Source: Lysobacteraceae bacterium
GTDB lineage: Bacteria; Pseudomonadota; Gammaproteobacteria; Xanthomonadales; Xanthomonadaceae
Direction of reading: 5' to 3'
Assembly (NCBI GenBank): GCA_018333835.1
Contig: JAGXSL010000172.1
Span: 1-39,823 of the forward strand
Length of the DNA: 39,823 nt
Shown: in pieces, positions 23,851 to 36,929 of the stretch
How positions within the stretch are numbered: position 1 is the first letter of the stretch
Layout of the letters: each line of letters opens with the position of its first letter
Position numbers and translations under genes: made by a program
The notes under the pieces: generated by a model
What the model was told of the DNA's origin: nothing
The model's database searches: none
What the model saw: only the letters and a program-made list of their open reading frames with translations

Positions 23851-24244
23851 GGGCGAGACCGACGGGATGGCGGGCCGGGGCGCATCTGTATACACTCCGC
23901 GCGCAGGCCCAAGGTTCTGATTCGCTTGGGAGTTGGCCGAAAGCCCCCTCCCCTGGGTTCCCGCCGAAACGCGACCACGCCCCCCGGGGGCGATCATGTT
24001 AGCGGCTTTCGCGTGGGCAGACCTGCCCCTGCCCGCCTGTCCCGAGGGGTTGCCCGACGGTCGTGCGGCAAGCACCGGCGTGGCCTGACGAACCGCCCGG
24101 ACCACTGGAATACCAAGAAGCGCTCCCGCGGGCATGGCCCGATGGTCCGAAGCGCTGGAAAGGTGCCAGGCGCCGCTTCCGCGGCGCCGGATGACGGGCC
24201 CCGAGCCGGCGTTCCTCGCGGTAGAGCGCGTGAGGAACCTGACA
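23851..24244 (+). promoter_or_regulatory. rne leader / rluC-rne divergent control region (394 bp)
   Basis: This gap has no protein gene. It holds a symmetric TGTATACA (23887-23894) overlapping a plus-strand TACACT (23891-23896) with a CGCGCGC discriminator. It also has a CCCCCGGGGG block near 23981-23990 and a strong hairpin (GGCGCCGC at 24169-24176, loop TTCC, GCGGCGCC at 24181-24188). If transcription starts near 23903, the rne leader is about 340 nt. E. coli rne has a leader of similar length, whose hairpins RNase E cleaves to control its own mRNA. A functional match here is inference, because I cannot align the structures. Confidence 0.6.
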
Positions 24245-27013
24245 ATGAAGCGGATGCTGATCAATGCCACGCAGGCCGAAGAACTGCGCGTGGCGATCGT
24301 GGACGGCCAGTCCCTGTACGACATCGACATCGAGCAGTCGGCCAAGGAACAGCGCAAATCCAACATCTACAAGGGCCGCATCACCCGGCTCGAACCCTCC
24401 CTCGAAGCGGCCTTCGTCGAATACGGCGGCGAGCGCCACGGCTTCCTGCCGCTGAAGGAGATCGCCCGCGAGTACTTCCAGCCGGGCACGAACCCCGACA
24501 AGAACAGCCTCAAGGAATGCCTGCGCGAAGGCCAGGAAGTGGTCGTCCAGGTCGACAAGGAGGAGCGCGGCAACAAGGGCGCGGCGCTGACGACCTTCAT
24601 CTCGCTGGCCGGCCGCTACATGGTGCTGATGCCGAACTCGCCGAACGCCGGCGGGGTGTCGCGGCGCATCGAGGGCGAGGACCGCCAGGCCCTCAAGGAG
24701 GCCCTGGACCGGATCAACATCCCCGATGACATGGGCGTCATCATCCGCACCGCCGGCGTCGGCCGCGATGCCGAGGAACTGCAGTGGGACCTCGCCTACC
24801 TGCTGCAGGTCTGGCGCGCCATCTGCGAGGCCGCCCTGTCGAAGCCGGCGCCCTTCCTGATCTACCAGGAATCGCGGCTGATCGTGCGCGCCCTGCGCGA
24901 CTACCTGCGCGGCGACATCAACGAGATCCTGATCGACACGCCGGCCATGTACGACGAGGCCCGCGAGTTCATGCAGCAGGTGATGCCGAACTCGCTGCGC
25001 AAGCTGAAGCTCTACAAGGACACGATCCCGCTGTTCAACCGCTTCCAGATCGAGTCGCAGATCGAGAACGCCTACGACCGCCACGTGCGCCTGCCTTCCG
25101 GCGGCATGCTGGTCATCGACCAGACGGAAGCCCTGACCGCCGTCGACGTCAACTCGGCGCGCGCCACCAAGGGCGGCGACATCGAGGAGACCGCGCTGCA
25201 GACCAACCTGGAGGCCGCCGACGAGGTGGCCCGCCAGCTGCGCCTGCGCGACTTGGGCGGCCTCGTCGTCATCGACTTCATCGACATGGGCTCGACCAAG
25301 GCCCAGCGCCAGGTCGAGGACCGCCTGCAGAACGCGCTCAAGCACGACCGCGCCCGCGTCCAGGTCGGCCGCATCTCGCGCTTCGGCCTGCTGGAGATGT
25401 CGCGCCAGCGCCTGCGTCCGTCGCTCGGCGAGAGCAGCCAGATGGTCTGCCCGCGTTGCGACGGCCATGGCCGCGTGCGCAGCGTCGAGTCGCTGTCGCT
25501 GTCGATCCTGCGCGTGGTCGAGGAGCACGCGATGAAGGAAAACACCGGTCAGGTGCTGGTGCAGGCCCCGTCGCAGATCGCCAACTACCTGCTCAACGAG
25601 AAGCGCCGCGCCATCCTCGAGATCGAGCAGCGCCACGACGCACCGATCATCATCGTCGCCGATGCCGAGTTGGAGACGCCGCACTACAACGTCACCCGCA
25701 TCCGCGAGAGCGAACTGGGCGAGGAGAGCGCCAAGCCCAGTTACCACCGCGGCAGCCCGCGCAAGCTGGAACTGCACGCCCTCACCAAGAACCAGCTCAA
25801 CATCCCGCCCCCGCCGGCGGTCACCAAGGTGCAGCCGGTCCAGCCGATGCCCAGCCGGCCGGCGCAGGAATCCGAGGGCGAGGTCGCCGTCGTGACGGCA
25901 CCGGCCGCGGCCCCCGCCACAGCCCCGCCCCGCGGCGGCTTCTGGAACCGCCTGATGGCCGGCCTGAGTTCGGTGTTCACTGGCGAGCCGGCGACGCCGC
26001 CCGCGGCCACGCCGGTCGCATCGACCCCGGCCAGACCCGCGGCCGAGCGTCCGCGTCGTGAAGAGCGCAGCGCGCGCGGCGAGCGCGGCCAGCGCGGAGA
26101 CAGGCCGCAGCGTGGCGAGCGCCCCGAGCGCGGCGAGAAAGCCGAGCGTGGCGAGAAGCCGGAGCAGGCCCGGCGCGAACGCAACGGCAAGCCGGAGCGC
26201 AGCCCGGAGGAGCAGAAGCGGATCGACGAACAGCGCAAGCTCGAGGAACAGCGCCGCCTCGAAAAGCAGCAGCGCCGCGAGGAACAGCAGCGGCGCGAGA
26301 CCGAGAAGGCCGAGGCGCGCCGGCAGGAACAGGCACGACGGCAGCAGGAGTCGCGTGCAGGCAACGGTCCGGCCGGGGATCCTCCGGCGTCCGTGGCGGC
26401 CGCGCCCGGGCAGGCCGTCGCGGGCATGCCGGTGCCGACCGCCGCCGCCGCCGCACCCGCCGCGGCGCTGGCCGATGCGACCCCGGCCGCAGCGGACGGC
26501 CTGATGACGGCCGAGGCCATGCCGGAGGCCGCCGCCGTCCCGACGCACGAACAAGCCGACCCTTCCGAAGCCGCCGGCAGCGGCAAGCGGCGTCGCGGAC
26601 GCCGTGGCGGCCGTCGCCGTCGCCGCGGCCAAGGCGAGGCAACCGGCACCGAGGGTGGCCAGCAGGACCAGGACGATCCGTCCTTCGATCCCGAGGACGA
26701 TCCCGAGGAAACACCGGCCGCCACCCGCGGCGATGACGCGCCGGCGTCGGCTCCGGCCCAGGTCCTGCGCCTGCTGACCGCGGTCGAATCGGATTTCGAG
26801 GATCTGCCGGCCCCAACCCCGGCCACGGTCCAGGCCGTACCAGCCGTGACCGAGGCCCAGCCAACCGTGGTCGAAGCAGCCCCAGCCCCGGCGGTGCCCG
26901 AAACCCAAGCTGCCGTGGTCGAAACCTTGCCGGCCCCGCGACAACCGGACCTGCTGCTCGATCTGCCGGACGATGCCGGGGAACGCCGCCCCGAGGAATC
27001 GCCCCGGCCCTGA
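24245..27013 (+). CDS. rne: Ribonuclease E
   Basis: A 922-residue endoribonuclease and RNA-degradosome scaffold. The catalytic half (1-510) shows [22 protein letters not shown], an S1 domain (about 35-125), metal-binding D301 (AVDVNS) and D344 (VIDFIDM), and the Zn-link cysteines C402 and C405 (VCPRCDGHG), matching E. coli D303/D346 and C404/C407. The C-terminal half is low complexity. [14 protein letters not shown] (about 565-578) is a likely amphipathic membrane anchor, followed by arginine/glutamate-rich RNA-binding tracts (RGER repeats, then EEQ/RR coiled segments) and [17 protein letters not shown] near 780. The alanine/proline-rich tail may carry partner motifs I cannot assign. GAGG lies 7-10 nt before the ATG. 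Confidence 0.97.
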
Positions 27014-27086: not shown

Positions 27087-27731
27087 TCAGTGCGGGGCGA
27101 GGTAGGCGTCGTGGACCCCGTACTGGGTAGCCAGCCGCGCCAGGGACAGCGTGTCCTTGATCGAGAGCTTGTCCAGCAGGCGGTATTTGTGGGTCGCGAC
27201 GGTCTTCCCCGACAGGTGCAGGCGGCGGCCGATCTCCTCCAGCTTCAGGCCCTGGCAGAGCAGCTTGGCGACCTCCATCTCGCGCGGCGACAGGGCCTCG
27301 AAGGGCGAAGCCCCTTCGTTCCCGGCGAGCGCGAGGTGCTGGGCCACTTCCGCGGCGAGGTAGCGGCGACCGCGCGCGGCCTCGCGGATGGCGCGGAGCA
27401 GTTCCTGGGCGTCACAGGCCTTGCCGACATAGGCATGGGCGCCCGCCTCCATCAGCCGGCGCGGCATCGGACCATCCTGCTGCACGGAACAGATGACCAC
27501 GCGGCTGCTGGCACCGGCCTTGGCCAGCCGTTCAGTGACCTCCAGCCCACTGACGCCGGGCAGGTGCAAGTCGCAGAGCACCACGTCGGGCTTGAGCTGG
27601 CGGATCAGCGGCAAGGCCGCCTCGCCATCCTCGGCCTCTCCCACCACCCGCAGGTCGGTCTCGCGCTCGAGGATGAGCCGGTAACCAGTGCGCACCAGGG
27701 CGTGGTCGTCCAGCAGGAACACGGTGATCAT
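27087..27731 (-). CDS. GacA/UvrY-like response regulator (NarL/FixJ family)
   Basis: A 214-residue two-domain regulator. The receiver domain has DD at 8-9, phospho-acceptor D54 (VVLCDLHLPGVSGLE) and a conserved K in YVGKACDA. The C-terminal LuxR-type helix-turn-helix reads LSPREMEVAKLLCQGLKLEEIGRRLHLSGKTVATHKYRLLDKL. The spacing SPFEALS before it, and VRTGYRLIL and GLEVTERLAK in the receiver, resemble GacA/UvrY, which in other gammaproteobacteria switch on small RNAs that titrate CsrA. The usual downstream uvrC and a cognate sensor kinase are absent here, so orthology is not certain. ATG 27731 places the first strand correctly. Confidence 0.88.
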   Translation of the reverse strand: MITVFLLDDHALVRTGYRLILERETDLRVVGEAEDGEAALPLIRQLKPDVVLCDLHLPGVSGLEVTERLAKAGASSRVVICSVQQDGPMPRRLMEAGAHAYVGKACDAQELLRAIREAARGRRYLAAEVAQHLALAGNEGASPFEALSPREMEVAKLLCQGLKLEEIGRRLHLSGKTVATHKYRLLDKLSIKDTLSLARLATQYGVHDAYLAPH

Positions 27732-27770
27732 GCGTCCTCCGCGCCCGGGCGTTGTGCCGGGCATGGGAAG

Positions 27771-27799
27771 AGACTAGGCAGACCGCCGAGTGCGGGCAA
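27771..27799 (-). promoter_or_regulatory. Putative promoter of the GacA-like gene
   Basis: On the minus strand, TTGCCC (complement of 27794-27799) is followed after 17 bp by TAGTCT (complement of 27771-27776). The start would be near 27764, about 33 nt before the ATG. The spacing is ideal, but the -10 matches consensus at only three positions. Confidence 0.35.
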
Positions 27800-27904
27800 G
27801 CGGTGGATTCCGGCCTTCGCGTAGGAAATCGATGCGGCCCTCGACCGGAGGAATCCTACCCTTCGCCATCGGAACCGCCGGCCGACGGGCAGCTGCGCCT
27901 GGAG

Positions 27905-28040
27905 GGCGAGCCTGTCGGTGTATCGGGGCGGACTTCCCGGGGCGAGCCTGTCGGCGGATCGGAGTGCGCTCGAACTCGGCAAGGCGAGCCTGTCGGCGGA
28001 TCGGATCCGGTTCGTGCTGGCGAGCCTGTCGGCGGATCGG
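27905..28040. repeat. Four interspersed copies of a 22-bp direct repeat
   Basis: Core GCGAGCCTGTCGGCGGATCG, flanked by one more G on each side, occurs at 27941-27962, 27983-28004 and 28019-28040 without change. A diverged copy (GTGTA instead of GCGGA) is at 27905-27926. Start-to-start distances are 36, 42 and 36 bp, with unrelated 14-, 20- and 14-bp spacers. Repeat and spacer are too short and too regular for a CRISPR array, and no cas genes are present. Confidence 0.9.
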
Positions 28041-28210
28041 GCCACCTGCTTCCCGCGCGATCGGGCTTCCTGCCCTCACGCGCGGCGCTCGGCTCCTGCC
28101 TCGCTGCCGCAGGTCGGCCCTCACCACCGCGGCTCGCCCGACAGGCACCGCGCTTGCGACCACGGCTCGCCCACGCTCGTGGTGTAGCCATGCCGCAGCG
28201 TGTTTGTGAT

Positions 28211-28225
28211 CCCGGCCTTGCCGGG
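28211..28225. repeat. REP-like stem-loop
   Basis: CCCGGC (28211-28216), CTT loop, GCCGGG (28220-28225). A perfect 6-bp stem inside the repeat spacer. It resembles a small repetitive extragenic palindrome. Its copy number elsewhere cannot be judged from this window. Confidence 0.5.
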
Positions 28226-28290
28226 TGCTTCGCTCCACGACCCGCCGGGAACGATCCGCGCCGTGCCCGTGGGCCATGGGGATCGCAGGA

Positions 28291-28309
28291 GGCGCACACG
28301 ACGTGCGCC
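28291..28309. repeat. Perfect 7-bp stem-loop in the repeat spacer
   Basis: GGCGCAC (28291-28297), loop ACGAC, GTGCGCC (28303-28309). It could be a structured RNA element or the terminator of the minus-strand transcript entering from the 5'-nucleotidase gene. There is no T-tract. Confidence 0.5.
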
Positions 28310-28360
28310 GTCCGGTGACTGCGGAGCGGGACGCGTAGCCGTCGCCGGCCGCGACCCCAT

Positions 28361-28480
28361 GGACCACGAAGGCAGGCGCGTCCGGAACCGTCGGCCCCGT
28401 GGCCCACGAAGGCAGGCGCGTCCGGGACGGTGGACCGAGTGGGCCGCGCAGGCAGGCGCACCCGGGATTCCTTCACTCGT
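28361..28480. repeat. Three tandem 40-bp units
   Basis: Units start at 28361, 28401 and 28441. The shared core is CACGAAGGCAGGCGCGTCCG in the first two and is diverged in the third (CGCGCAGGCAGGCGCACCCG). The second halves of the units differ more. The last unit runs 8 bp into the 3' end of the 5'-nucleotidase gene (stop at 28473). The period is not a multiple of three, so it is not a coding repeat. Confidence 0.8.
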
Positions 28481-29366
28481 TGGAGACCCCGTGCGGCACG
28501 TGGCCGGCGGCGACATGCTGCATCGCGCTCTCGATGTTGTGCATCGAATCGTCGAAGAAGATGTCGGCGCCGAAGGTCTCGAGGAAAGGCCCCTTCGGCC
28601 GGCCGCCGAGGAACAGCGCCTCGTCGAGGCGGATGCCCCATTCGCGCAGGGTCAGGATGACGCGCTTGTGCGCCGGCGCGGAACGGGCGGTGACCAACGC
28701 GATGCGGATCGGCGGGTCGTCGGCCGGCAAGGCCTGCTGCAGGTCGTGCAGGGCCGCGAGGAAGCCGCGGAAGGGGCCGCCGGACAGCGGTTCGGCGGCG
28801 CGTTCGCTCTCGTGCGCGTGGAAGGCCAGCAGCCCGGATTGCTGCGAAACCCGCTCGCTCTCGTCGCCGAAGATCACCGCGTCGCCGTCGAAGGCGATCC
28901 GCAGTTGCGGGTGCGGCTCCACCTGCGGCCGCGTGGCGGAAGGCAGGATGGTGGCGGCGGCGACGCCGTGCTCCAGCGCGCTGCGTACGCTGGCCGGGTT
29001 GGCGCTCAGGAACAGCTGGGCGCCGAACGGCGTGATGTAGGGATGGGTGTCGGCACCGGCGGTGAACACCGCGCGCACGATCGGCAGACCGTAGTGCTCG
29101 ATGGCGTTGAAGATGCGCAGGCCGGTGTCGGCGGAATTGCGCGAGAGCAGGATCACCTCCACCGGCGGCACGCCCTCGGGCAAGCTGCGGTTGAGTGCCA
29201 GCAGCTTGCGCACCAGCGGGAAGGCGATGCCCGGCCGCAGCAGCACGTTCTCGTGGCGACGCTGGTACTCGGCGTAGGCCAGCAGGCCCTCGCGCTCGAA
29301 CAGGGCGTGGCCGTCCTCGAGGTCGAACAGCGCGCGGGCGGTGATGGCGACGGTGAGCGGGCGCAT
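28473..29366 (-). CDS. Cytosolic-type 5'-nucleotidase
   Basis: A 297-residue protein matching the bacterial relatives of vertebrate cytosolic 5'-nucleotidase I. Landmarks are VILLSRNSADTGLRIFNAIEHYGL, LRIAFDGDAVIFGDESE, IALVTARSAPAHKRVILTLREWG, LFLGGRPKGPFLETF and DIFFDDSMHN, a HAD-like arrangement with the catalytic aspartates in DGD and the metal-binding DD near the end. It dephosphorylates nucleoside monophosphates such as AMP, and possibly NMN. Its start overlaps the nadK stop by one base, so the two are coupled. With glutamate dehydrogenase upstream this makes a cofactor-centred operon. The extreme C-terminus overlaps the 40-bp repeat. Confidence 0.88.
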   Translation of the reverse strand: MRPLTVAITARALFDLEDGHALFEREGLLAYAEYQRRHENVLLRPGIAFPLVRKLLALNRSLPEGVPPVEVILLSRNSADTGLRIFNAIEHYGLPIVRAVFTAGADTHPYITPFGAQLFLSANPASVRSALEHGVAAATILPSATRPQVEPHPQLRIAFDGDAVIFGDESERVSQQSGLLAFHAHESERAAEPLSGGPFRGFLAALHDLQQALPADDPPIRIALVTARSAPAHKRVILTLREWGIRLDEALFLGGRPKGPFLETFGADIFFDDSMHNIESAMQHVAAGHVPHGVSNE

Positions 29367-30142: not shown

Positions 30143-33100
30143 TCAGCGGGCGGCGGCGTGGTGGCCGGCGGCCACCAGCTGCCCGAGGCGGCGCACCGCG
30201 ACCAGCAGGGTGGCGTAATCGACGCCACGCAGCAGGCGCATGTCGGCGAACATGGCGAGGGTGCGGCGCAGGCCAAGGTCCTCGCGGGCCAGCCAGGTGC
30301 CCAAGGCCTCGCCCACCGGCCGGCCGGCGGGAAGGCCGGCCAGCACCTGCCCCACCAGCACGCTCTGCTGCTGCTGCAATTCGTCGCGCAGCGCGCTGCG
30401 AGCCTGGGCATGCCAGGGACCCTCGACCGGCAACTGCTCGACCTGGTCCATCAGCCACTTGGTGTGCAGCGCCTCGGAAAGGGCGAAGTAGAGCACCGCC
30501 ACGTCGGCCACCGGCAGGCCACGCTCGAGGGCGATGACCGCGATGTCCGGACCGTAGGTGAGGAACGGCAGGGCCGCGAGGTCGGTCGCCATCGCCGGCC
30601 CGAAACCACGGCGCGCCCAGGCCTCGGCACTGTCGGTGAACTGGGCGCGCGCCTCGGCGGGAAGGGCCTGCGGCAGGGTCTGGCGAAGCTCGCGCAGGGG
30701 ATCGGCGAAGCGCTCGACCATGGCGGCGATGCCGAGCTTGCCGCCGGGGCGGTTGAGCATCCAGCGGGTGTACTGGCGCAGCAGGTGCCAGATCGCCATC
30801 AGGGCGTCGATCTGCGCTGTCTCCGGCACCTTGAGGTCGGCGGCGTCGATCGCCGACCACCACTGCCTGGCATCGAGGATCTCGCGGGCGATGGTGTAGG
30901 CCTTGGCGATCTGCGCCGGTGGTTCGCCCGCGTCCTCCTGCATGCGCAGCACGAAGGTGGCGCCCATGCGGTTGACCATCGAGTTGGTGACCGCGGTGGC
31001 GATGATCTCGCGGCGCAGGCGGTGGCCCTCCATGTCGGCGGCGTAACGCTCCTGCAGGGCTTTGGGGAAGTAGCGCAGCAGCTCGCGCGAGAGGTACGGG
31101 TCCTCCGGCACGTCGCTGTCGAGCAGCTGGTTGAAGATCACGATCTTGTCGTAACTGAGCAGGATCGAAAGCTCCGGCCGGGTCAGGCCGAGGCCGCGCG
31201 AGCGGCGGTCGCTGAACTCGGCATCGGAGGGCAGGAACTCGATGGCGCGGTCGAGCAGGCCCTGCGATTCCAGCGTGCGGACCAGGTGCTGGAAGCTGCC
31301 GAGCCGCGGCGCGCTCATCCGTTCCATCAGGCTGATGGCCTGGTTCTGCCGGTAGTTGTCGTTGAGCACCAGTTCGCCGACCTCGTCGGTCATCTCGGCG
31401 AGCAGGGCGTTGCGCTGCTCCAGCGTCAGCCCGCCGCGGGCCATCACCGCGTCGAGCAGGATCTTGATGTTGACCTCGTGGTCGGAGGTGTCGACGCCGG
31501 CCGAGTTGTCGATGAAGTCGGTGTTGAGCAGCACGCCGTTCAGCGCCGCCTCGATGCGGCCCTTCTGGGTCATGCCGAGGTTGCCGCCCTCGCCCACCAC
31601 CTTGCAGCGCAGCTCCCTGCCGTCGACGCGCAGGGCGTCGTTGGCACGGTCGCCGGCGTCGGCATGGGTCTCGGCACTGGCCTTGACGTAGGTGCCGATG
31701 CCGCCGTTCCAGAGCAGGTCGACCGGCGCCTTCAGGATGGCGTTCATCAGCGCGGCCGGCGTCATCTGATCGACCGCCTCCTCGATGCCGAGCGCCGCGC
31801 GCACCTGCGGGCTCACCGGGATGTGCTTGGCCGAACGCGGGTACACGCCGCCGCCGGCCGAGATCAGCGCCCGGTCGTAGTCGTCCCAGCTCGAGCGCGG
31901 CAGCCGGAACAGGCGCTCGCGCTCGGCGAAGGAAGCCCCGGCATCCGGGTCGGGATCGAGGAAGATGTGGCGGTGGTCGAAGGCCGCCAGCAATCGGATG
32001 TGCTTCGAGAGCAGCATGCCGTTGCCGAACACGTCGCCGGACATGTCGCCGACGCCGACGACCGTGAAGTCCTGCGTCTGGCAGTCGCGGCCCAGCGCGC
32101 GGAAGTGGCGCTTCACCGACTCCCACGCACCACGGGCGGTGATGCCCATGCCCTTGTGGTCGTAGCCGGCCGAACCGCCCGAGGCGAAGGCGTCGCCCAG
32201 CCAGAAGCCGTGCTCGGCGCTGATGCCGTTGGCGATGTCGGAGAAGCTGGCCGTGCCCTTGTCGGCGGCGACCACCAGGTAGGGATCGTCGGCGTCGTGG
32301 CGCACCACGTCGACCGGTGGCACGATCCGGCCGTCGACGATGTTGTCGGTGATATCCAGCAGGCCGTGGATGAAGCGCTTGTAGCTGGCGATGCCCTCGG
32401 CCATCCAGGCGTCGCGGTCGCTGCTGGGCGGCAGCCGCTTCGGGAAGAAGCCACCCTTGCTACCGACCGGCACGATCACCGTGTTCTTCACCATCTGCGC
32501 CTTGACGAGCCCCAGCACCTCGGTGCGGAAGTCCTCGCGGCGGTCCGACCAGCGCAGGCCGCCGCGGGCCACCGGCCCGAAGCGCAGGTGGACGCCCTCG
32601 ACCCAGGGCGAGTACACGAAGATCTCGCGATAGGGGCGCGGCTTCGGCAGGTCCGGCACCTTGGCCGGGTCGAACTTGAAGCTGATGGAATCCCGGTGCG
32701 GGCCCGCGTGGATCTGGAAGAAACTGGTCCGCAAGGTGGCCTGGATGACCGCCCGGAAGCTGCGCAGGATGCGGTCCTCGTCGAGGCTCGCGACCTGCTC
32801 CAGCATCTGGCCGATGGCCTCGTCGCAGGCGGCGATGGCGGCCTCCCGGCTGGAGCCCGGGAAGTCGCGGCGCGGGTCGAAGCGCGCCTCGAACAGTTCG
32901 ACGAGGAGTCGCGCCGCCTGCGGGTAGCGCGCCAGCGTCTGCTCCATGTAGGCCTGCGAAAACGGCACGCCGGTCTGCAGCAGGTACTTGGCGTAGCCGC
33001 GCAGCATCGCCACCTGCCGCCAGGCGAGGCCGGCGGCCAGCACGAGCTTGTTGAAGCCGTCGTTCTCGGCGTCGCCGCTCCAGACGTGTTCGAAGGCCGC

Positions 33101-34930
33101 CTCGAAATGCGCCCGCACCGCGGCCAGGTCGCCGAGCGGACACTGCGGCTCCACCACGAAATCCTGGATCGCGATGGTGCGGCCCTCGCCGTCGGAGAGT
33201 GCGTGGGGATGCTCGGAGAGGATGCGCAGGCCGAGGTTCTCCAGCATCGGCAGGGCGTCGGAGAGTGCGATGGCGTGCTCGAGGCGGATCGCCTTGAAGC
33301 GCAGGCCCTCGGATGTCGAGTAGAGCGAGAGCTTCAGGTCGGCTTCGCCGGCGAGGTGGTCGGCCTGCACCAGGTCGAGCGCCGCCGCCTCCGGCGGCAC
33401 GGTGTCCATGTAACCCGGTGGCAGGCCCCGGGCGAAGCGCCGTGCCAGCCGCAAGCCCTCGCCCTCGCCGCGCAGGCGGACCAGGGCCTCGCGCAGGCCG
33501 TCCTGCCAGTTGCGGACGATGGCGGCGATGCGCTGTTCGAGCTGGGCCGGATCGACCCCGGCCTCGATCCCCGGGCGGGGGCGGACCACCAGGTACATCT
33601 GCGCCAGCGGCGAACTGCCGATCTGGATGCTGGAATCGAGCCGATCGCCCTGCAGCTCGTCGCGCAGCAGGGCTTCGATGCGGCTGCGGACTTCGCCGCT
33701 GAAGCGGTCGCGCGGGATGTAGACCAGCGCGGTGAAGAAGCGGCCGTAGCGGTCGCGGCGCAGGAACAGCCGACTGCGCGGCCGTTCGTGCAGGGTGAGG
33801 ATGCCCATCGCGGTGCCGAACAGCTCCTCGGTCGAGGCCTGGAACAGCTCGTCGCGCGGCAGGGTGTCGAGGATGTGGCGCAGGGCCTTGCCGCTGTGGC
33901 TGCCGGGCGCCAGGCCGGAGCGCTCCATGATCTGGTCATGGCGGCGCCGCACCAGCGGGATCTCCCAGGGCCGGCGGTTGTAGGCGCCCGAGGTGTAGAG
34001 GCCGAGGAAACGCCGTTCGGCGATCGCATTGCCATCGGCGTCGTAGTCCAGCACGCCGATGTAATCCATGTAGCCGGGCCGGTGCACGGTGGCCCGGGCG
34101 TTGGTCTTGGTCAGGATCAGCACGTCGCGCTCGCCGCTGCGCCGCCGCGCCAGCACCTCGGCGAGCGGACGCGGGCCGTGCGAGGGGGTCGCGCGCATCA
34201 GGCCGAGCCCGCTGCCCTCGACCGGCACCAGCAGCCGTGCCTCGTCCTCGCCAATGACCCGGTACTCGCGGTAGCCGAGGAACGTGAAGTGGTTGTCGGC
34301 CGCCCAGTGCAGGAAATCCTGGGCCTCGGTGCGGGCCACGTTGTTGACCGGCAGCGGACGGCTGGAGAGTTCGTCGGCGGCACGCACCATCGCCTCGCGC
34401 ATCGCCGCCCAGTCCTGCACACAGATACGCACATCGGCGAGCACCGCCTCCAGCCGGGCCTGGAGGGCGGGCAGTTCCTCGGCCGGCTGGCGGTCGATCT
34501 CGATGTGCATCAGCGATTCCGCCCTGCCCGCGCCGATCGCGACCAGAGTCCCGGCCTCGCGCCGGACCGCAAGGACCGGATGCACCAGCAAGTGGGTGCC
34601 GATGCCGTGCTCGGCCAGGGCCATGCTGGTCGAGTCGACCAGGAACGGCATGTCGTCGTTGACCACCTGCAGCACGCTGTGGCTGCTCGACTCCGGGTTG
34701 AACAGACGGATCTTGGGTACGCCGGGGGCGCGCCGCTCCGCGAAGGCGAGGAACTCCCGGGCCAGCGCCAGCCATTCCGCCGCCGGCCGCTGGGCCAGTT
34801 CCTCGGCCGGCAGGCGGTCGTAGAGCGCCGCGACGAAGTCCACCAGCAGGGTCTTGGCGGGATCGGCCACGGCGGCGGCCTGGACCAGGGCGGTCAATTC
34901 GGCATTCGGAGCGGGGTTCGGGGCACTCAT
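30143..34930 (-). CDS. gdhB: NAD-specific glutamate dehydrogenase, large (about 180 kDa) type
   Basis: A 1595-residue enzyme of the large bacterial NAD-GDH family (Bac_GDH), which oxidatively deaminates glutamate to 2-oxoglutarate. The N-terminal third is regulatory (ACT-like segments, for example HSVLQVVNDDMPFLVDS near 75-100). The catalytic region has GPVARGGLRWSDRREDFRTEV and KNTVIVPVGSKGGFF, then VGVGDMSGDVFGNGML and WNGGIGTYVKASAETH for the NAD domain. The long C-terminal helical region ends near the nadK start. Length is typical for the class found in Pseudomonas and Xanthomonas. The ATG at 34930 was chosen because the frame upstream lies inside uup. There is no clear ribosome site. Confidence 0.95.
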   Translation of the reverse strand: MSAPNPAPNAELTALVQAAAVADPAKTLLVDFVAALYDRLPAEELAQRPAAEWLALAREFLAFAERRAPGVPKIRLFNPESSSHSVLQVVNDDMPFLVDSTSMALAEHGIGTHLLVHPVLAVRREAGTLVAIGAGRAESLMHIEIDRQPAEELPALQARLEAVLADVRICVQDWAAMREAMVRAADELSSRPLPVNNVARTEAQDFLHWAADNHFTFLGYREYRVIGEDEARLLVPVEGSGLGLMRATPSHGPRPLAEVLARRRSGERDVLILTKTNARATVHRPGYMDYIGVLDYDADGNAIAERRFLGLYTSGAYNRRPWEIPLVRRRHDQIMERSGLAPGSHSGKALRHILDTLPRDELFQASTEELFGTAMGILTLHERPRSRLFLRRDRYGRFFTALVYIPRDRFSGEVRSRIEALLRDELQGDRLDSSIQIGSSPLAQMYLVVRPRPGIEAGVDPAQLEQRIAAIVRNWQDGLREALVRLRGEGEGLRLARRFARGLPPGYMDTVPPEAAALDLVQADHLAGEADLKLSLYSTSEGLRFKAIRLEHAIALSDALPMLENLGLRILSEHPHALSDGEGRTIAIQDFVVEPQCPLGDLAAVRAHFEAAFEHVWSGDAENDGFNKLVLAAGLAWRQVAMLRGYAKYLLQTGVPFSQAYMEQTLARYPQAARLLVELFEARFDPRRDFPGSSREAAIAACDEAIGQMLEQVASLDEDRILRSFRAVIQATLRTSFFQIHAGPHRDSISFKFDPAKVPDLPKPRPYREIFVYSPWVEGVHLRFGPVARGGLRWSDRREDFRTEVLGLVKAQMVKNTVIVPVGSKGGFFPKRLPPSSDRDAWMAEGIASYKRFIHGLLDITDNIVDGRIVPPVDVVRHDADDPYLVVAADKGTASFSDIANGISAEHGFWLGDAFASGGSAGYDHKGMGITARGAWESVKRHFRALGRDCQTQDFTVVGVGDMSGDVFGNGMLLSKHIRLLAAFDHRHIFLDPDPDAGASFAERERLFRLPRSSWDDYDRALISAGGGVYPRSAKHIPVSPQVRAALGIEEAVDQMTPAALMNAILKAPVDLLWNGGIGTYVKASAETHADAGDRANDALRVDGRELRCKVVGEGGNLGMTQKGRIEAALNGVLLNTDFIDNSAGVDTSDHEVNIKILLDAVMARGGLTLEQRNALLAEMTDEVGELVLNDNYRQNQAISLMERMSAPRLGSFQHLVRTLESQGLLDRAIEFLPSDAEFSDRRSRGLGLTRPELSILLSYDKIVIFNQLLDSDVPEDPYLSRELLRYFPKALQERYAADMEGHRLRREIIATAVTNSMVNRMGATFVLRMQEDAGEPPAQIAKAYTIAREILDARQWWSAIDAADLKVPETAQIDALMAIWHLLRQYTRWMLNRPGGKLGIAAMVERFADPLRELRQTLPQALPAEARAQFTDSAEAWARRGFGPAMATDLAALPFLTYGPDIAVIALERGLPVADVAVLYFALSEALHTKWLMDQVEQLPVEGPWHAQARSALRDELQQQQSVLVGQVLAGLPAGRPVGEALGTWLAREDLGLRRTLAMFADMRLLRGVDYATLLVAVRRLGQLVAAGHHAAAR

Positions 34931-34960
34931 GGGGGGGTGGACGGCGAGGTGAAGGCGCGA

Positions 34961-34966
34961 AGTGTA
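34961..34966 (-). promoter_or_regulatory. Putative -10 element of the glutamate dehydrogenase operon
   Basis: On the minus strand GGGTACACTTCGCGCC spans the 61-bp gap between uup and the dehydrogenase gene. TACACT (complement of 34961-34966) would start transcription about 24 nt before the ATG. No -35 box is seen. The same element occurs before deaD, uup and rne. Confidence 0.42.
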
Positions 34967-34991
34967 CCCGGCGGCGGCCCGGGGCCGGGGA

Positions 34992-36929
34992 TCAGCCCTC
35001 CAGCTCGGCCCAGCGCGCGAAGGCCGCGTCCAGCCCGGCTTGCAGCGCCGCCATCCGGGCATGGTGCGCGGCCTGCGCCGCGCCGTCCCGCGCGTAGAAG
35101 TCCGGTGCCGAAAGCGCTTCGGTGAGGGCCGCCATCTCCCTTTCGAGGGCGTCGATCCGTCCCGGCAGGGCCTCGAGTTCGCGCTGCTCCTTGAAGCCGA
35201 GCCGGCGCTTCGGCGCTGGGGTGGCTGCGGCACCTGAGGCCCCGGCGTCGGGCGCAGCGCCCGTCGATGCCGACCCGGGGAGCTGGCTGGGGGCGGGGCT
35301 CGATGCGGACGGCTTGGCCACCGCGCCGGCGGTCGCCGCCACGCTGGCCGCGGGCCGCTGCCGCAACCAGTCGCTGTAGCCGCCGACGTACTCGCCGACC
35401 CGGCCATTGCCCTCCATCACCAGGGTCGAGGTCACCACGGCATCGAGGAAATCGCGGTCGTGGCTGACCAGCAGCAGGGTGCCGGGGTAGTCGCCGAGCA
35501 GCTCCTCCAGCAGCTCCAGCGTCTCGACGTCGAGGTCGTTGGTCGGCTCGTCCATCACCAGCAGGTTGGAAGGCTGGGCGAAGAGCCGCGCCAGCAGCAG
35601 GCGGTTGCGTTCGCCGCCCGAAAGCTTGTGGATCGGCGCGCGGGCGCGCTCCGGCGTGAACAGGAAGTCCTGCAGGTAGCCCATCACGTGCTTGCGCTGG
35701 CCGCCCACCTCGACGAACTCGGCACCCTGCGAGACGTTGTCGAGCGCGTTCCAGTCCTCGCGCAGGGCCATGCGGTACTGGTCGAAGTAGGCGACCTGGA
35801 GCCCGGTGCCCTGCCGCACCTCGCCGGCCTGCGGCGCGAGCTCGCCGAGCAGCAGGCGGATCAGCGTGGTCTTGCCGCTGCCGTTCGGGCCGACCAGGCC
35901 GATGCGGTCGCCGCGCATAACCGTCAGGTCGAGCCCACGCACCAGCGCCTTGTCGCCATGCGCGAAGCACAGGCCTTTGGTCTCGATGACCTTGCGGCCG
36001 CTCTGCTGCCCTTCGGCCAGCGCCATCCGTACGTTGCCGGTCTTGTCGCGGCGCTCGGCGCGCTCGCGGCGCATGGCCTCCAGCCGGCGCACGCGGCCCT
36101 CGTCGCGGGTGCGGCGGGCCTTGATGCCCTGGCGGATCCAGACTTCCTCCTGCGCCAGCAGCTTGTCGAAGCGTGCGTTCTCCTGCGCCTCGGCGTGGGC
36201 ACGCTCGGCCTGCCGGCGCTGGTAGTTGGCCCAGTCGCCGGACCAGCTCGTCAGCGCGCCGCGGTCGATCTCGACGATCCGCGTGGCCAGCGCCTTCAGG
36301 AAGCGGCGGTCGTGGGTGACGAAGACGATGCTGCCGGCATGGTCGAGCAGCGCCGCCTCCAGCGCCTCGATGGCGGCGATGTCGAGGTGGTTGGTGGGTT
36401 CGTCGAGCAGCAGCACCTGCGGCTCGGCGACGAAGGCGCGGGCCAGCAGCACGCGGCGCTTCAGGCCACCGGACTGGGCGCTGAAGGGCAGTTCGCCATC
36501 GAGCCCGAGCTTGGTCAGCGTGGCCGCGACCCGGGCCTCCAGCCGCCAGCCGTCGGCAGCATCGATACGCGCCTGCACGCGGCCCAAGGCCTCCATGTCG
36601 ATGTCCTCGGCATGGCTCAGATGATGGAACTCGGCGATGTCGCGCCCGACCGAACCGAGGCCGTCCGCGACCACGTCGTAGATCGAGCCCGCGAGGTGGG
36701 CGGGCACCTCCTGCTCCAGCCGCGCCACGCGCACGCCGCCCTCGAGTCGGCGCTCGCCGTCGTCGGGGGCGATCTCGCCGGCGATCAGCTTCAGCAGGGT
36801 GGACTTGCCGGCGCCGTTGCGGCCGATCAGGGCGATGCGTTCGCCGGCGTCGATGGCGAGGTCGACGCCATCGAGCAGGCGCGGGCCGCCGACGCCATAG
36901 TCGACGCGATTCAGGGTGAGCAGAGGCAT
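34992..36929 (-). CDS. uup: ABC-F ATPase Uup
   Basis: A 645-residue soluble protein with two ABC ATPase domains and no membrane segments. Walker A motifs are GRNGAGKST (36-44) and GPNGSGKTT (about 345). The signature motifs are SGGLKRR and LSGGERNR, and the Walker B sites are LLLDEPTNHLD and LVMDEPTNDLD. The ABC-F linker (ERAHAEAQENARFDKLLAQEEVWIRQGIKARRTRDEGRVRRLE) lies between the domains. An A/P-rich hinge leads to a C-terminal coiled coil (GRIDALEREMAALTEAL...), the DNA-binding region typical of Uup. It acts in ribosome-associated quality control and genome stability. It has no ribosome site: the ATG lies 7 bp after a TACACT element. Confidence 0.93.
   Translation of the reverse strand: MPLLTLNRVDYGVGGPRLLDGVDLAIDAGERIALIGRNGAGKSTLLKLIAGEIAPDDGERRLEGGVRVARLEQEVPAHLAGSIYDVVADGLGSVGRDIAEFHHLSHAEDIDMEALGRVQARIDAADGWRLEARVAATLTKLGLDGELPFSAQSGGLKRRVLLARAFVAEPQVLLLDEPTNHLDIAAIEALEAALLDHAGSIVFVTHDRRFLKALATRIVEIDRGALTSWSGDWANYQRRQAERAHAEAQENARFDKLLAQEEVWIRQGIKARRTRDEGRVRRLEAMRRERAERRDKTGNVRMALAEGQQSGRKVIETKGLCFAHGDKALVRGLDLTVMRGDRIGLVGPNGSGKTTLIRLLLGELAPQAGEVRQGTGLQVAYFDQYRMALREDWNALDNVSQGAEFVEVGGQRKHVMGYLQDFLFTPERARAPIHKLSGGERNRLLLARLFAQPSNLLVMDEPTNDLDVETLELLEELLGDYPGTLLLVSHDRDFLDAVVTSTLVMEGNGRVGEYVGGYSDWLRQRPAASVAATAGAVAKPSASSPAPSQLPGSASTGAAPDAGASGAAATPAPKRRLGFKEQRELEALPGRIDALEREMAALTEALSAPDFYARDGAAQAAHHARMAALQAGLDAAFARWAELEG

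Follow-up and report, generated by a model that had tools for sequence, protein, structure and literature searches.

A new family of dispersed palindromic repeats, with a copy upstream of a GacA-like regulator gene, in a Lysobacteraceae genome

Introduction

Several families of short, dispersed palindromes are known in bacterial genomes. REP sequences and BIMEs, described for E. coli, Stenotrophomonas and Xanthomonas in the available part of PMC2817692, form clusters of extragenic palindromes in opposite orientations and at high copy number, and the palindrome is maintained through sequence change. ERIC (IRU) elements are intergenic repeats of 127 bp with a folded RNA form (PMC2229807, available part). 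BOX elements of Streptococcus pneumoniae are composite and strongly folded as a whole, with a variable number of tandem boxB modules between boxA and boxC (PMC3049150, available part). Small RNAs of the CsrB/RsmZ type, which antagonize CsrA/RsmA proteins, expose GGA in ANGGAN-like loops. The available text of PMC7652899 gives the CsrA/RsmE site as RUACARGGAUGU with, at its best, an ANGGAN hexaloop and paired flanking AC and GU, and A(N)GGA is also named as the CsrA/RsmA site in the accessible part of PMC4066749.

The stretch of Lysobacteraceae DNA analysed here (the window, 39,823 nucleotides) is contig 172 of a genome assembly (G000) of 2.55 Mb in 211 contigs that is 90.4% complete. It carries four near-identical 22-mers, for which a first-pass annotation had considered a regulator's binding array, a dispersed repeat family, a structured RNA and the remnant of a peptide-repeat gene. 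Our analysis indicates with high confidence that these 22-mers are tandem copies of the 5' arm of E1, a palindromic mosaic repeat of ~120 bp that is non-autonomous and dispersed between genes. E1 is a dispersed palindromic repeat of the REP/ERIC/BOX kind and represents a new family. No published account of the E1 repeat, or of CsrA sites on dispersed repeats, was found among the titles and abstract openings searched, in which few subscription journals are covered.

The 22-mer array and its neighbours

The four copies lie on the forward strand upstream of the GacA-like gene, and the 36/42/36-bp spacing first reported for them holds (starts at 27905, 27941, 27983 and 28019). Three are identical (27941-27962, 27983-28004 and 28019-28040). 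The first one (27905-27926) is diverged: it has two mismatches within the 21-base pattern and, as had been claimed, no GGA. Copy 4 adjoins the core and is predicted to pair with the 3' arm. An array of this kind is not expected by chance: four matches at up to three mismatches compare with a mean of 0.02 in 100 dinucleotide-shuffled windows, none of which attained four. At the same threshold, no further arm match was found elsewhere in the window. The feature extends past position 28040: the last arm is joined to a conserved core, which is closed by a 3' arm whose end is at 28138.

On the regulator side, the array is flanked by a response regulator gene on the reverse strand (27087-27731). Its best NCBIfam model is UvrY/SirA/GacA, at 202.7 bits and thus below the cut-off of 280, which bears out the GacA-like label given to this neighbour at that sub-threshold level. 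Regulators of the GacA-like class control the Rsm system. The first E1 arm is located 174 bp upstream of the regulator start (27731). An RNase E gene (24134-27013, forward strand) lies just past the regulator. On the other side is a 5'-nucleotidase gene (28473-29366, reverse strand, PF06189), whose stop codon abuts the array of a second element, E2. Overlapping open reading frames of 89 to 261 amino acids cross the arrays on both strands between 27728 and 28641. They are likely spurious gene calls, and the several frames that span arrays are a caution for gene callers.

E1, an imperfect palindrome dispersed in one genome

The E1 element of the window (28019-28138, forward strand) was delimited by fold, alignment and a sequence model, R1. 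It consists of a 5' arm, a two-hairpin core and a single 3' arm at 28124-28138 (CCACCGCGGCTCGCC, from the predicted fold). Its score of 128.5 bits against R1 is that of a copy which is itself a row of the model. The element is an imperfect palindrome of 120-121 bp of which the 22-mer is the left arm. It is bounded by 8-bp terminal inverted repeats of the kind expected for MITEs (GGCGAGCC/GGCTCGCC), which read GGCGAACC/GGTTCGCC in the E1 of the sister species (G007).

The possibility of a dispersed genomic repeat family, raised at first reading together with the advice to count the 22-mer genome-wide, is supported by that count. The genome holds 124 arm copies at up to three mismatches, divided 67 to 57 between the strands, and a reversed-pattern control gave none. 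This number is both inflated and depressed, since the assembly is redundant as well as fragmented. Three pairs of contig pieces around E1 (C153/C13, C34/C18 and C193/C94) have 658-2195 bp in common at 99.7-100% identity, which reflects redundancy or mis-joins in the draft. Many contigs end about 95 bp past the last arm, indicating that the repeat breaks the assembly.

About 140 kb around the arm copies were fetched. From 59 sites, three duplicates were removed (L038, the minus strand of L058, and L061), leaving 56 distinct sites with 102 arms. One arm is present at 28 of these, two at 13, three at 12 and four at three. The last arm runs into exactly GCCACCTGCT in 49/56 sites, and at 36/56 a 3' arm is present no more than 115 bp further on. 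The core is truncated in five of the remaining sites, and in 15 the contig ends first. One of the 36, L049, probably combines a truncated core with a chance 3'-arm match. Nearly all assessable arrays thus lead to the same core. A miniature E1 was noticed on the minus strand of L073 (from position 348), with arms around hairpin 1 alone. It looks as though the two inner segments were deleted between the short direct repeats ATCGGG and CCCTCAC, and it is predicted to fold into a single long hairpin.

At up to two mismatches, the arm is absent from all seven congeners, and in a set of 100 genomes, own genome included, one match each was found in the more distant G016, G070 and G087. A search of 119 family genomes with model R1 returned, besides the own genome, weak matches in G001 (at least three) and G016 (at least one); these are lower bounds, as 30 candidates were scored per genome. 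The exact 21-mer gave no match in the genome_contigs set, from which near relatives may be missing. A phage or plasmid origin was rejected, with no exact 21-mer in viral contigs and no blastn match of 27905-28160 to plasmids and phages at E ≤ 1e-5.

E2, the facing element

E2 has the same plan as E1 and lies in the window on the reverse strand. Its 5'-arm array (28365-28460) was read from arm-core matches and by eye: the core CGCGCCTGCCTTCGTG is exact at 28405-28420 and 28365-28380, 40 bp apart, and a third, diverged arm was read by eye at 28445-28460. The last arm, core and 3' arm occupy 28255-28380, with an inner boundary that is approximate as it comes from the fold, and the 3' arm is placed at about 28255-28275. 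Together with its array, E2 has a fold z-score of -2.4. The own genome has 68 copies of the E2 arm core (up to one mismatch). At several loci, E1 and E2 are oppositely oriented, head to head or tail to tail, and their combinations are a BIME-like mosaic. In two E2 copies, L060 and L099, a nested extra palindromic stretch replaces the hairpin loop, forming a repeat within a repeat.

Position relative to genes and absence from congeners

Gene context at the 56 sites was assigned with a home-made six-frame codon model trained on five window genes (RNase E, the regulator, the nucleotidase, NAD kinase and the 30143-35407 frame), whose recovery is no independent test of it. The 30143-35407 frame we take to be an NAD-glutamate dehydrogenase. 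On the arm side, the nearest gene is directed towards the array at 25 sites and away from it at 17, with 14 unassigned. On the 3'-arm side, the gene is convergent at 28 sites, not convergent at four and unassigned at 24. Of the 25 arrays with a gene directed towards them, 18 begin 1-54 bp past the predicted gene end. Only four of the 56 arrays overlap a predicted gene. E1 is thus found mostly at the 3' ends of genes. The window copy, upstream of a gene start, is an exception.

A conserved position next to the regulator, the pattern to look for in relatives if the array were regulatory, was not found in the closest congener, G003, which has the nucleotidase/regulator pair (93% and 94% identical) and neither element. 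The stretch without a counterpart covers approximately 27891-28470, and the intergenic space measures ~740 bp in the window versus ~170 bp in G003. For the remaining six, the stretch fetched beside the nucleotidase did not show the regulator. A second E1 site is flanked by a VanY-like gene and by one resembling a DNA glycosylase, both named by eye. Six congeners gave a match there, and five of them (G002, G003, G004, G006 and G007) have the gene pair with a short gap and no E1; the sixth, G001, is without the first gene, and G005 gave no match.

From the two sites compared, we infer that E1 was recently gained in its own lineage. The difference from the congeners may stem from insertion, from expansion of a small repeat already present in the ancestor, or from loss in the congeners. 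In the one boundary alignment available at the window site, against the diverged flanks of G003, no clean target-site duplication is visible.

A conserved predicted fold

The structured-RNA option is borne out as far as structure is concerned, in terms of predicted folds and conserved pairing. E1 is predicted to form an outer stem, an inner stem and two adjacent hairpins. This overall fold is common to all 26 distinct full copies (37 occurrences, selected by core and 3' arm), with predicted energies from -66.8 to -80.5 kcal/mol. The typed consensus has a z-score of -5.4, and the hairpin variant one of -7.2. The isolated parts are unremarkable: 0.50 for the 22-mer alone, -0.86 for the array (27881-28030) and -0.90 for 28041-28180 without the arm. 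Rfam gave no match in the window at the gathering threshold, and none in 27760-28480 at E ≤ 5.

Some compensatory changes appear to be present in E1. The two main versions of hairpin 1 in the own genome, GGGC-gtcct-GCCC and GCCC-atccat-GGGC, differ by a double swap under which pairing is preserved. In an alignment of 26 own and six sister copies, both sides have changed in 7 of 32 pairs, and 98.6% of the cells are able to pair, compared with 39-54% in slid controls, which reach at most two double-change pairs; the structure counted is the RNAalifold consensus of the very alignment under test. In the shuffle control, seven double-change pairs were reached in 127 of 500 runs and the number of further pair types in 476 of 500, and none attained the 43 double-change cells, the percentage paired or the covariation score. 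Those 43 cells trace to few events, namely one hairpin swap and one species contrast.

Growth of the arm arrays

Only the 5' arm is multiplied, with one to four copies in a row, and the 3' arm is single. The sister species shows this asymmetry too, in sequences that differ: one of its E1 copies is preceded by two arms, and an E2 copy by three arms at 33-bp spacing. The spacers of the own genome are 12-27 bp long. They had been described as unrelated, and look so within the window, but across loci they are similar in kind: of the 41 distinct spacers, 35 contain CTCG (mean of 4.2 after mononucleotide shuffling) and 17 contain GGCTCG (shuffled mean, 0.8). As GGCTCG complements CGAGCC of the arm, each unit of arm and spacer with this hexamer may be able to form a small local hairpin.

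Likewise, the distances are all multiples of six in this array but not throughout: of the 46 spacings measured at the fetched sites, 29 can be divided by six and 32 by three, and 38, 40 and 44 bp also occur. The steps of six bases would fit the gain or loss of one CTCGGG-like hexamer. The remnant of a peptide-repeat gene, proposed because the spacings of the array all keep frame, is rejected on the 14 of 46 spacings that are not divisible by three and break it; 52 of the 56 fetched arrays also lie outside predicted genes. Within an array, neighbouring spacers resemble each other more than expected by chance: five of 18 adjacent pairs are at least 85% alike, against a mean of 0.71 under permutation, and none of 2000 permutations gave as many. 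This suggests that arrays grow in part by local duplication.

CsrA/RsmA-like loops and other readings of E1

Read on the reverse strand, the core hairpins of E1 display loops resembling the sites of CsrA/RsmA. In the predicted fold of the window copy, hairpin 1 (28063-28075) has the loop AGGAA and hairpin 2 (28091-28100) the loop AGGA. The GGA of the 22-mer arm is on the other strand and is without the preceding A of a CsrA site. For the own copies, the loops were left free in a search that fixed the flanks and part of the hairpin 2 stem. Hairpin 1 carries CAGGACG in 41 copies, CATGGATG in 10, and CAGGAAG (the window copy), CAAGGATG and CAGGGATG in one each. The GGA is kept in 54/54 hairpin 1 loops and 48/49 hairpin 2 loops. 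The A(N)GGA loop that marks CsrA/RsmA-binding RNA is thus found in own E1; in E2, GGA is present in 9 of 15 copies.

These loops would be accounted for if the antisense twin hairpins were transcribed, bound a CsrA/RsmA dimer and either titrated RsmA or imposed Rsm control locally; at the window, the element would then sit in the leader of the GacA-like gene. We consider this reading possible, though rather unlikely. A pattern of hairpin 2, searched beyond the own genome with its upstream neighbour left free, matched at least 107 stretches, of which those in Bradyrhizobium, Streptomyces and others are possibly chance or coding matches. Among the matches listed, the upstream hairpin carries CA(N)GGA(N)G in 26/33 with stems of at least eight pairs, 34/59 with at least seven and 39/88 with at least six. 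They comprise 21 distinct hairpins, and 35 of the 39 are no more than 11 nt away from hairpin 2. When the hairpins to either side are taken together, again among the matches listed, A(N)GGA is found in 40/143 on this strand versus 3/143 on the other, and in 2.0/51.2 per shuffled set. The loop N is A, C, G, T or absent and the GGA is fixed, as in the CsrA/RsmE sites presented in the available part of PMC7652899. Twin hairpins were seen in Azotobacter vinelandii, Stutzerimonas, Pseudomonas, Pseudoxanthomonas, Stenotrophobium, Aeromonas, Geothrix and others, and the own genome has one CsrA match.

Several observations argue against such a sponge or local site. The sense RNA of genes that end before an array has the complementary loops, without GGA, the GGA strand being antisense. 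The E2 hairpin is without GGA in six of 15 copies, including that of the window. The distant loci are non-independent, with several per genome, and several stems exceed the short ones favoured in SELEX (PMC7652899, available part). No Rsm small RNA family of Rfam was found among 11 distant loci, where the sole match was JUMPstart, and none in the window, nor was a GacA-box-like site found in the window at up to three mismatches.

Side observations were made at three of these loci. In L116 (G255) and L127 (G208), from two other genera, the hairpin-2 motif adjoins tRNA-like genes, as judged by eye, with repeated stretches of the tRNA-like end beside it. In L203, from the Proteobacteria MAG ZJ1.bin62, the motif occurs three times in tandem at 105-bp spacing.

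Taken to its furthest, the loop pattern might reflect widespread dispersed repeats, chiefly of Gammaproteobacteria, made of twin hairpins with conserved CsrA/RsmA loop sites and stems free to change. These would be RsmA decoys or Rsm-responsive 3' or 5' UTRs scattered by amplification, one of them in a GacA-like leader. This proposal is speculative and, on balance, improbable. Because of the GGA gaps in E2 and the antisense GGA strand, putative CsrA binding is kept as our boldest reading and not as a conclusion.

Selection of E1 as a transcription terminator or as a stabiliser of mRNA 3' ends is unlikely as well. Such a role would agree with the sense orientation past stop codons, with the location between genes that converge, and with the very stable predicted fold. 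The congeners, however, are without the element at both gene pairs compared, and the sole terminator-like site within 27700-28520 is a five-pair stem at 28189-28202, a weak site for which an intrinsic terminator was rejected.

E1 might instead be a genuine REP/BIME family, moved by a RAYT (Y1) transposase. In favour are the palindromic and clustered units, the two kinds of which are often oppositely oriented, and RAYT-REP/BIME systems are known in Stenotrophomonas and Xanthomonas (PMC2817692, available part). Yet PF01797 gave no match in the own genome, at its 90.4% completeness, or in the seven congeners, the 22-mer alone folds no better than shuffled sequences, and the arm starts with GGCGAGCC and has no GTAG-type start. 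RAYT mobilisation is therefore disfavoured, and this reading appears very improbable.

The weakest reading, a dedicated array through which a DNA-binding regulator would control the GacA-like gene, would suit the regular spacing and the position 174 bp upstream of the gene start, but is rejected as highly improbable on the number of arm copies, the differing flanks of the 56 fetched sites and the empty orthologous site of the closest congener. In addition, some pairs of the 5' and 3' arms have changed in concert from one species to the other, a sign of pairing and not of protein contact alone. The position of E1 beside the GacA-like gene looks incidental.

A possible course of amplification

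As a dispersed palindromic repeat, E1, together with E2, would have been gained and amplified in its own lineage. The folded single strands would be copied or moved by a trans-acting enzyme, a RAYT being the candidate looked for and not found. Arm number would rise locally through slippage or unequal exchange, partly by duplication of an arm with its spacer. Copies would be retained mainly because the 3' ends of genes tolerate them with least harm. When transcribed, the folded RNA would probably act on the 3' ends or the stability of neighbouring mRNAs; by analogy with the ERIC review, in its available part (PMC2229807), such effects are plausible.

If the A(N)GGA loops are true sites, the repeat family would act as a mobile source of RsmA sites, and its amplification would be tied to post-transcriptional regulation. 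With one arm of its palindrome multiplied, E1 offers a case in which to ask how hairpin repeats are copied when a RAYT is not detected.

Comparison with known repeat families

E1 resembles the REP/BIME systems, as far as the available part of PMC2817692 describes them, in its extragenic palindrome clusters, opposite orientations, high copy number and palindrome kept through sequence change. It differs in its longer unit of ~120 bp with two hairpins, in a tandem part made of the 5' arm alone, and in that neither a RAYT nor a GTAG-type start was found. The GGA-bearing loops recall the CsrB/RsmZ-type antagonist RNAs (PMC7652899, available part), with two such loops per E1; unlike them, E1 is dispersed, multicopy and without an Rfam match.

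With ERIC, the comparison is one of architecture: both are intergenic, of similar length (127 versus 120 bp) and have a folded RNA form (PMC2229807, available part). BOX was likewise compared by architecture alone, its host belonging to a different phylum. It shares with E1 the composite build, the variable number of tandem modules and the strong fold of the whole, and differs in that boxB repeats between boxA and boxC, whereas E1 repeats its pairing 5' arm (PMC3049150, available part).

We know of no ERIC with tandem copies of one arm. E1 is ordinary in kind and unusual in plan, with a single arm of the palindrome multiplied, also in the sister species with another arm sequence.
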